Assembly: GCF_002208115.1 (NCBI RefSeq) | Contig: NZ_CP020946.1 | Location: 3,286,001-3,350,000, forward strand | Source of the DNA: Bdellovibrio bacteriovorus | GTDB taxonomy: Bacteria > Bdellovibrionota > Bdellovibrionia > Bdellovibrionales > Bdellovibrionaceae | Direction of reading: 5' to 3' | Length of the DNA: 64,000 bases | Shown: piece after piece, positions 1,195-44,907 of the stretch | Numbering within the stretch: the first letter of the stretch is position 1 | Layout: each line of letters begins with the position of its first letter | Made by a program: the position numbers and the translations under genes | The notes under the pieces: generated by a model | Told to the model about the DNA's origin: nothing | The model's database searches: none | The model's input: the letters and a program-made list of their open reading frames with translations, nothing else

Positions 1195-1224
1195 CGCTTC
1201 TGCAAAAGTAAGCAGGTACCTTTT
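1195..1224. repeat. Single arm of a REP-like palindrome
   Basis: These 30 bases are identical to 43592-43621, the right arm of the palindrome that abuts the RAYT-like gene. Here only one arm is present, without its partner, between recA and the DUF488 gene. A perfect 30-base match across 42 kb is not expected by chance. Confidence 0.75.
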
Positions 1225-42669: not shown

Positions 42670-43542
42670 ATGAAACGTCCTATTTCTTTGGCTTTGTCTG
42701 CGCTGACTTTTACGGCTGCCCTGGCTCACGCACAGGAAGAAGTTCTGCCTCAGGCGCCTTCCAACGAAAAATTGATTGAACTGCAGACGACTCAGGGTAT
42801 GAAACGGGCGGTGGAGAAAGTCCTGAACCTCGATACTGAATGGGGCATCTTCGACAAATTCAAACCGAACCGCTGCAAGTACGCCATTCAGATTCCTGAC
42901 TCTGTCACTCGCGGCACCATCGCCCTGACTTTCGATGACGGACCAAATCCTGAAACGACGCCAGTGATTTTGGATGTGCTAAAAGCGCATGGCGCCAAGG
43001 CGACTTTCTTTATTTTGGGAAGCAAAATCAAAGGCAACGAATCCATCCTGCGCCGTATGGTCGCCGAAGGTCATCAACTGGCGAATCACTCTTACAGCCA
43101 TCCGAACTTCCATGAACTGAGTTCTTCACGCATGAATTCAGAAATCTCGCAAACCGACCGTCTGCTTCGCACTGTGGGCACGCCGCGCTTCTTCCGTTAT
43201 CCCTACGGAAACTCCACATGCTCCAGCAACGAACTGGTCAGCTCTTTGGGTTATGTGAATGTAGGCTGGGATATCGACACCTGTGACTGGGCTTTTGCTG
43301 ATGGCCAAGTAAGCGACAAAGAAAACGCCACCTGCCAGGCTCCACAGCACCTGCGCCGCGATTACGCGGGCTACGTCGCCAACGTGGTGGCCCAAACCCA
43401 AGGCGGCGTTCTGCTGATGCACGACATTCACAAAAACACCGCGCACAGCCTGGATCGCCTGATGACGATGCTGGAACAAGACGGCTACCGTTTCGTCTCC
43501 CTCACCGACCGCAACATCTTCCCCAAACTAAACCGCCGCTAA
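42670..43542 (+). CDS. Secreted NodB-type polysaccharide deacetylase
   Basis: 290 aa. Signal peptide (LALSALTFTAALAHAQ). NodB domain motifs: L-T-F-D-D-G-P-N (metal and catalytic Asp), A-N-H-S-Y-S-H-P (metal His pair), R-Y-P-Y-G-N, D-I-D-T-C-D-W and L-M-H-D-I-H. All catalytic groups are present. Predators use such enzymes to deacetylate prey peptidoglycan GlcNAc, marking the wall for later lysis. Two were described in B. bacteriovorus (Bd0468 and Bd3279 by my recollection), and this position fits the first. GGAGG lies 9 nt before the ATG. Confidence 0.92.
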   Translation: MKRPISLALSALTFTAALAHAQEEVLPQAPSNEKLIELQTTQGMKRAVEKVLNLDTEWGIFDKFKPNRCKYAIQIPDSVTRGTIALTFDDGPNPETTPVILDVLKAHGAKATFFILGSKIKGNESILRRMVAEGHQLANHSYSHPNFHELSSSRMNSEISQTDRLLRTVGTPRFFRYPYGNSTCSSNELVSSLGYVNVGWDIDTCDWAFADGQVSDKENATCQAPQHLRRDYAGYVANVVAQTQGGVLLMHDIHKNTAHSLDRLMTMLEQDGYRFVSLTDRNIFPKLNRR

Positions 43543-43546
43543 CCCC

Positions 43547-43621
43547 AAAAGGTATCTGCTTACTTTTTCCGAAGCCCTGCACAAAACGCGGCGCTTCTGC
43601 AAAAGTAAGCAGGTACCTTTT
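43547..43621. repeat. REP-like imperfect palindrome beside RAYT-like gene
   Basis: The left arm 43547-43575 and right arm 43593-43621 are 29-base inverted repeats with 3 mismatches and a 17-nt loop. The right arm ends inside the stop codon of the RAYT-like gene. Its 30-base core recurs at 1195-1224. It lies 5 bases after the deacetylase stop, so it may also terminate both converging transcripts. Confidence 0.75.
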
Positions 43622-44150
43622 AGATTCTTAGAGGATAGGGCTGGGATTGCAGTCCTATTTTTTTTAAATGTTCTAGTATTTCGCGGTCGGCGATGATGGA
43701 ATAGCCGCGAATTTCTTCCAAGACCCGTGTCCACGGGCGCTGATCCCAGAATTTCTTTTTCAATTTTCGTGTTTTAGCTGCCCCGGTGATCATCAGGGCC
43801 AACATTCCGCTGACGGCGCGAATGAAGGGCGCAAAGGTGCGCCGTTTGCGCAGGCGAATCAGCACATGCAGGCTTTCGCCGGAGCAGACGATTTCCCTGA
43901 GGGAAATACCGTATTTTCTTGCCTGAGTCTTTAAAACTGAATCGATGATTTTTCTGTTCTTTGATTTTTCAAAAGCCCATTCGCCCCGGGCTGATTCTGA
44001 CGACAACACAACATGCATCATGTTTTTCAAAGAAAGCGGTCGCGCCGTTTTGGCGTGGCTGTTCTTTAAAAGCTGACCCCCGAACTGCTTCGTAAGTTGC
44101 AGACGGGGGTTATCTATACGGGTTGTGGCTCTTCGGGAGGAGCGTCTCAT
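43620..44150 (-). CDS. RAYT-like (REP-associated Y1 transposase) protein with degenerate HUH
   Basis: 176 aa. The opening R-P-L-S-x-K-x-M-M-H-V-V-L-S-S (residues 37-51), the R-K-I-I-D-S-V-L-K-T-Q-A-R-K-Y-G helix and S-G-E-S-L-H-V-L-I-R follow the small transposase family that moves REP sequences. In active members the last motif is N-H-x-H (HUH); here it is E-S-L-H, so one metal His is lost. F-W-D-Q-R-P-W-T-R-V-L and a single Tyr in the R-G-Y-S-I-I helix resemble the catalytic-Tyr region. The ATG at 44150 gives the family length; longer frames run into the yggS promoter region. It may be inactive or domesticated. Confidence 0.6.
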   Translation of the reverse strand: MRRSSRRATTRIDNPRLQLTKQFGGQLLKNSHAKTARPLSLKNMMHVVLSSESARGEWAFEKSKNRKIIDSVLKTQARKYGISLREIVCSGESLHVLIRLRKRRTFAPFIRAVSGMLALMITGAAKTRKLKKKFWDQRPWTRVLEEIRGYSIIADREILEHLKKIGLQSQPYPLRI

Positions 44151-44247
44151 GAACCATGTTCTACCATCATTTCCGATGTCGTCAACAAAAAAGTAGCGAT
44201 GGTATTTTTCTGGACATTTTTGCGAAGAGGATGATAGTTTTCCGGTC

Positions 44248-44907
44248 ATGGCATTAAAAGAGATCATAGAAAAAGCAAAACCCGCGAAGATCCTGGCCGT
44301 TTCCAAACTTCAACCGGCAAAAAAGGTGCGTATCCTGTACGCCGAGGGTCAGCGCCTGTTTGGTGAAAATTACGTTCAGGAAGCCCTTGAAAAACAAAGT
44401 GTGCTTTCTGACCTTCCTGATATTCAGTGGCATCTGATTGGACACCTTCAAAAGAACAAAGCAAAAATGGTGGTTGGAAAATTCCACCTCATCCATTCGG
44501 TGGACTCTCTGGAACTAGCCCAGGTGATCAGCCGGCAGTGCGAACAAAAAGGCGTCAGACAAAATATCCTGATCCAGGTGAATCTGGCGGGCGAAGCCAG
44601 CAAAGAGGGCTTTTCCACTGAAACCCTGGAAAGCCAGTGGGCGGACCTGACAAAACTGCCGCATCTTCATATTTATGGCCTGATGACCATGCCCCCATTA
44701 ACCGAAACCGGGGCCGAAGTACGTCCTTACTTTGCAGAGCTGCGCCGACTGCGCGACCGACTGAAAGCGGCCACGGACACGACAGTTCACCCACTGAATG
44801 AGCTGTCAATGGGCACGAGTCACGATTATCCGGTCGCGGTCGAAGAAGGCGCCACAATCGTGCGGCTTGGGACTATTTTATTTGGCGAACGTCCCGCCAA
44901 AGGGTAG
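44248..44907 (+). CDS. yggS: Pyridoxal-phosphate homeostasis protein YggS
   Basis: 219 aa, slightly shorter than usual at the N-terminus. It binds PLP and balances B6 vitamers and amino-acid pools. The PLP lysine is in L-A-V-S-K near residue 19. F-G-E-N-Y-V-Q-E, W-H-L-I-G-H-L-Q-x-N-K, G-L-M-T-M and L-S-M-G-T-S-H-D-Y-x-x-A-V are all present. It precedes proC by 9 bases, the common yggS-proC arrangement. No Shine-Dalgarno is seen. Confidence 0.95.
   Translation: MALKEIIEKAKPAKILAVSKLQPAKKVRILYAEGQRLFGENYVQEALEKQSVLSDLPDIQWHLIGHLQKNKAKMVVGKFHLIHSVDSLELAQVISRQCEQKGVRQNILIQVNLAGEASKEGFSTETLESQWADLTKLPHLHIYGLMTMPPLTETGAEVRPYFAELRRLRDRLKAATDTTVHPLNELSMGTSHDYPVAVEEGATIVRLGTILFGERPAKG

Follow-up and report, generated by a model that had tools for sequence, protein, structure and literature searches.

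We found that the Bdellovibrio gene at 43620-44150 (minus strand, 176 aa) is a catalytically dead relative of the Y1 (IS200/RAYT-like) transposases. We consider it most probable that this single-copy gene was exapted as a nucleic-acid-binding regulator, and that the palindrome at its 3' end is a separate element, a pair of repeats belonging to another gene, RAYT-A (probability of this reading about 0.62). The window, by which we mean the whole stretch of DNA analysed (64,000 bases), corresponds to G000:C1:3286001-3350000 in a genome of 3,769,537 bases, whose sequence was inspected in the stretches surrounding repeats and genes. In a survey of the family, Y1 (HuH-Y) proteins without the motifs of a complete active site were set aside as probably non-functional (PMC6006769); here, purifying selection has maintained one such protein at a fixed locus although its Tyr and His pair are gone, together with an invariant cis element common to its mobile-looking relatives. 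It provides a small and testable candidate case of a single-strand DNA transposase becoming a host protein.

A Y1 fold without the catalytic residues

The earlier note had recognized the pattern of a small Y1 protein in the translation of the gene, and this fold is supported by the family profile, the predicted structure, and structure matches. The family profile matched the solved structures of the ISDra2 and ISHp608 TnpA proteins (E 2e-5 and 1e-4, respectively). Structure prediction, which the note had proposed as a check, recovered a Y1 fold with a Z score of 10.8 to ISHp608 TnpA vs 7.4 to the best unrelated chain, albeit from a modest model (mean pLDDT 59.7, built from three sequences, both termini poor), so that only the core of the model was used. 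Profile searches were less favorable to the note's expectations. The Y1 match was present but weak (Y1_Tnp, 21.3 bits), falling just below the curated cut-off of 23 that two of the orthologues exceed (28.8 and 25.5 bits), and the anticipated RAYT match failed (NCBIfam REP_Tyr_transpos, 17.4 bits against a cut-off of 80).

Homologues were detected by protein search in 62 of 100 relatives. Members of the family share an N-terminal stretch, [FYH]GG...RPxS...MHxVLRS, and the intact ones carry GNHLHL and DYVxxN. Among 33 aligned family sequences (24 intact members and nine orthologues of the window gene), the two His, the Tyr, and the Asn were all kept in 24/24 intact members; the Tyr was retained in 0/9 orthologues and both His together in 0/9. 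Counting codons from the ATG at 44150 on the minus strand, the window protein has Ser93 (43872-43874) where every intact relative has the first HUH His, the second HUH His is retained as His95 (43866-43868; Gln in five of the nine orthologues), and the column of the catalytic Tyr holds Arg156 (43683-43685). The reduction of the HUH motif to E-S-L-H, described in the earlier note, is thus confirmed, and the catalytic Tyr is likewise gone. ESLH also occurs in G006 and G002, with QDLH in G016 and DHLQ, DHIQ, or DQLQ in the other orthologues, and about 50 columns are invariant across all nine. A catalytically intact family member is encoded elsewhere in the same genome, outside the window (G000:C1:2827539-2827781, L032; GNHIH and KYIERN). 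A second family member in G012 (G012:C1:2893227-2893640, L111) reads GNHLQ, having lost the second His, and keeps the Tyr in KNYVSL.

By both sequence profile and structure, the best matches of the window gene were to IS200/IS605 TnpA proteins (ISDra2, ISHp608), from which it differs in its missing catalytic residues, single copy, and fixed locus. A possible affinity is to class 3 of the HuH-Y proteins (Quentin et al. 2018, PMC6006769). Members of this rare class of Y1 proteins share conservation at the N terminus, and 5 of the 10 first members were noted to lack conserved HuH or Y motifs. The class 3 signature is Y----Q (PMC6006769), whereas the window-gene family has Y---N followed by Q, H, F, or other residues, with Gln in some members only. 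The Y1 fold and small size are shared with RAYT/TnpA-REP proteins (PMC2817692, PMC6006769), and PDB 4er8 was among the fold matches, but the window protein lacks the Tyr, a complete HUH, and a flanking inverted-repeat pair, and its intact family shows Y---N without the P of the RAYT Y---NP. The Y1 family of the window gene is separate from the RAYTs.

Conserved locus, descent, and purifying selection

All nine orthologues, one per Bdellovibrio species, adjoin yggS, a divergent plus-strand yggS-like gene in the window (44248-44907, named from its translation) that marks the conserved locus. On the other side lies a polysaccharide-deacetylase-like gene (42670-43542, plus strand, also named from its translation), a neighbor outside the system that is convergent with the window gene in G000, G006, G002, and G016. 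The orthologues form one clade in the family tree (support 99/96) and split into two groups of the genus tree. Their distribution would fit either ancestral presence with losses or transfer. On the simplest account, the Tyr would have been lost first, in a common ancestor of both groups; next, one lineage would have lost the first HUH His, and in the other lineage all members would have lost the second His and one of them also the first. The resulting protein should be unable to nick and rejoin single-stranded DNA by the known mechanism.

Among G000, G006, and G002, all of which share the losses, the dN/dS of the window gene was 0.15-0.21, and the protein was therefore still selected after its active site was lost. 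The excess of silent changes was significant (P 2e-6 to 9e-11). The two neighbors gave somewhat lower values: 0.08-0.13 in yggS and 0.05-0.08 in the deacetylase-like gene. Domestication had been raised as one possibility in the earlier note, and with its HUH motif broken the protein does look domesticated: it occupies a fixed locus, has descended without copies, is under purifying selection, and has lost its active site.

The palindrome is part of a dispersed repeat family

The 75-bp imperfect palindrome previously noted at the 3' end of the gene was recovered at 43547-43621, with 29-base arms at 43547-43575 (minus strand) and 43593-43621 (plus strand) and 3 mismatches. Each arm is an outward unit of a repeat family, REP-A, and the pair lies between two convergent 3' ends. 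The palindrome does end within the stop codon of the minus-strand gene: the TAA occupies 43620-43622, so two of its three bases come from the repeat. The arm CGCTTCTGCAAAAGTAAGCAGGTACCTTTT (43592-43621) is found again, exactly, at 1195-1224 (plus strand), where it forms a single unit, the window's second copy of REP-A.

A 23-base core of the arm gave 3 matches in the window at up to 3 mismatches vs 0 in 100 dinucleotide shuffles, and a 20-base core gave 30 matches genome-wide at up to 2 mismatches vs 0 for the reversed control. Counting the arm across the genome and checking it for intergenic bias and paired orientation, as the earlier note had suggested, bore out the idea of a repeat family. 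The arm is not unique (about 31 copies at 23 genome sites), 21 of the 23 sites lie between predicted ORFs (chosen by length alone), and at 8 of the 23 the units form an outward pair, with a length of exactly 75 bp in six cases. As a multi-copy, intergenic family with outward pairs, REP-A is therefore REPIN-like. The pairs are what it has in common with REPINs as outlined in PMC3116915, from which it differs in its outer end, AAAAGGTACC instead of GTAG/GTGG, and in its low copy number (~31 units). The unit consensus, from a listing of units, is ACGCNNNGCTTC[TG]G[CA]AAAAGTAAGCAGGTACCTTTT, with a variant TTTATGCA; given this outer end and the absence of a GT[AG]G head, REP-A is TIR-like in the sense of PMC3733652. 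An Rfam search of the window returned no match. Many copies of cousins of the REP-A core (AAAGTAACCAGGTACC and AAAGGAAGCAGGTACC) were seen in G078 and G079, which belong to other families of the order, and many of those listed are outward pairs.

As RNA, the palindrome folded far more strongly than shuffles on both strands (z -6.3 and -10.0), and it ends in TTTT on both strands, features that would suit a bidirectional terminator placed between the convergent genes. REP-A adjoins the window gene in three of the nine carrier species (G000, G006, and G002), at the 3' end only and as one REPIN; five of the nine carriers have 0 copies of REP-A, and a sixth lacks the repeat at this locus. The orthologous gap between the two convergent genes in G016 holds no repeat, and the presence of the repeat in the other three is therefore explained most simply by one arrival in their ancestor. 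A REPIN-like pair of RAYT-A's repeats would thereby have settled between two convergent genes and come to form part of a stop codon.

An upstream block and a possible regulatory role

All nine orthologues have in common an upstream arrangement of AAATACCATCGCTACTTTTTT, a TTGAC box, 16-17 bases, TA[GT]AAC, and an ATG 7 bases further on. In the window, the corresponding minus-strand features are an 18-base block, AATACCATCGCTACTTTT (44189-44206), a -35-like TTGACG (44180-44185; TTGAC in 9/9), which is absent from the listing of a generic promoter scan, and a -10-like TAGAAC (44158-44163; TA[GT]AAC in 9/9). With the ATG only 7 nt past the -10 box, the mRNA is probably leaderless.

The 18-base block occurs exactly, and once per genome, in 9/9 genomes of the genus with the gene and in 0/15 congeners without it, where two-mismatch matches were no commoner than in the control. 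It also lies upstream of intact, non-syntenic family members (e.g., L041 and L175), and a slightly looser motif precedes 21 of 55 intact members vs a low background (rough binomial P 5e-35, the paralogues not being independent). In G090, the sequence common to four intact copies starts at or shortly before the block and stops near the stop codon. Because the block is shared with intact relatives and stands at the edge of this unit, we take it to be the family's left-end element, still carried by the dead gene. Two other identities for the block were rejected. As a fossil REP-A end it shows some similarity (P ~0.002-0.003), which was picked post hoc, and a family-wide left end fits better; as the yggS promoter it was discarded because it is missing where yggS stands without the gene. 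G073 (L176-L182) and G090 (L183-L189) each hold several diverged copies of the intact family, and these have little in common besides a short unit that starts at the ACC[AT]TCG block or slightly upstream of it and runs approximately to the stop codon.

Under our preferred reading of exaptation, the rest of the fold with its many invariant basic residues, the promoter, and the ancestral left-end element have outlasted the catalytic site. The candidate nucleic-acid-binding protein would still recognize the left-end element ahead of its own promoter and yggS, acting as an autoregulator or local regulator. Since the block is single in each genome, there is no visible regulon, and the block could alternatively be part of the promoter and not a binding site. 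A more specific proposal, which we regard as possible rather than probable, is that a Y1 transposase, having lost its active site in both halves, became a transcription regulator that uses its own former transposon left end as operator, with this end unchanged across a genus of predatory bacteria. The intact family would then be a minimal mobile element with a left-end signal and hardly anything else besides one short gene. TldR, which has lost its nuclease, offers a parallel. In the outline given in PMC13418256, it is a TnpB-derived RNA-guided transcription factor, and hence also a transposon protein turned regulator, but it derives from a different protein of the element, and regulation by the window gene is putative.

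Alternatively, the dead protein might bind the hairpins of REP-A, or other hairpins, without cutting them, as a repressor of RAYT-A or a REPIN cap. Its retained Y1 fold and basic core, the restriction of REP-A to one lineage of carriers, and the weak, post hoc resemblance of the block to REP-A ends would all suit such a role. However, the gene was retained in the five species without REP-A, so REP-A binding is not its general role, and the block is better accounted for as the family's own left end, which leaves this alternative unlikely. We also considered that selection acts on the DNA or RNA of the region (e.g., a regulatory RNA or the yggS promoter) and not on the protein, for which the 5' tnpA RNA of IS200 in Salmonella, as sketched in PMC12594629, would be an analogue. 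Nucleotide conservation is strong upstream and in the first codons, yet silent sites of the coding sequence vary freely with the amino acids held, and the block is absent where yggS lies without the gene; we find this account quite improbable. Very little credence attaches to gradual decay of the gene as a mobile-element pseudogene: although the catalytic residues are gone, the protein ends are divergent, and dN/dS is somewhat above that of the neighbors, the frame is open in nine species, the post-loss dN/dS is low at P down to 9e-11, and the promoter, the upstream block, and the ~50 conserved columns have not varied.

RAYT-A is the partner of the repeat

Exaptation of the window gene is accompanied, in our reading, by a separate origin of the palindrome. 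The genome yielded five Y1 genes. One of these, RAYT-A (genome positions 1943378-1944013), is an intact canonical RAYT with NHFH and Y---NP that stands between two REP-A copies pointing outwards, at 1943265 and 1944047. The partner of REP-A is RAYT-A, a gene other than the window gene. RAYT-A itself reached just 60.3 bits against NCBIfam REP_Tyr_transpos (cut-off 80), and the model is therefore strict for this group. The earlier note had paired the window gene, as a RAYT, with the palindrome; this pairing was rejected in favor of RAYT-A, which REP-A flanks, the window-gene family not being so flanked. Terminal inverted repeats around that family were also sought, and the matches, at 7 of 50 loci, were mutually unrelated and only one was long. 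As a caution, a RAYT-like gene should not be paired with the nearest repeat by default.

High REP-A copy numbers (31, 23, 29, and 27) coincide exactly with the four genomes of the sub-lineage to which the window gene belongs. Because these genomes group together in the genus tree (support 86/99), the coincidence counts as one event. G002 lacks RAYT-A at the syntenic site, and a close copy of it was not found in G016, although both genomes are rich in REP-A. It is highly improbable that the window gene is nevertheless the RAYT of REP-A, binding and mobilizing it with an odd active site that is a working variant: REP-A is in contact with the gene in three species (the chance of a given gene flanking one of the 23 sites is ~1.3%, a rough figure that ignores a preference for convergent ends) and two of the four REP-A-rich genomes carry the dead gene without RAYT-A, but its Tyr and His pair are lost, repeats do not stand on both sides of it, terminal inverted repeats are missing from its family, the classic flanked layout is that of RAYT-A, and five carriers have no REP-A.

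Two further RAYTs have repeats of their own. The flanks of RAYT-B (genome positions 3207297-3207881) carry a second repeat family, AAA[GA]TCACCAGGCACC, with about 19 copies, found on both sides of the gene (G000:C1:3207158-3207930, L114; outside the window), and RAYT-C (genome positions 603333-603938, L115; outside the window) has its own AGGTTCCCGGTTCT ends. RAYT-A, -B, and -C fit the description of TIRYTs and TIRtrons (PMC3733652), having terminal inverted repeats without a GTAG tag, and the repeats of RAYT-A and RAYT-B additionally form dispersed families; the fit is to the partner of the palindrome, not to the window gene. RAYT/repeat pairs whose ends are of the GGTRCC type occur several times in Bdellovibrio, and in the library searched, titles and abstracts on Bdellovibrio with RAYT or repetitive extragenic palindromes contained no description of these repeats. 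Across the order, terminal inverted repeats were present at 27 of 34 canonical RAYT loci (two loci counted twice), mostly starting AAGGTRCC. Most canonical RAYTs sampled around Bdellovibrio (L066-L095) had terminal repeats of this AAGGTRCC type, not GTAG-tagged REPs.
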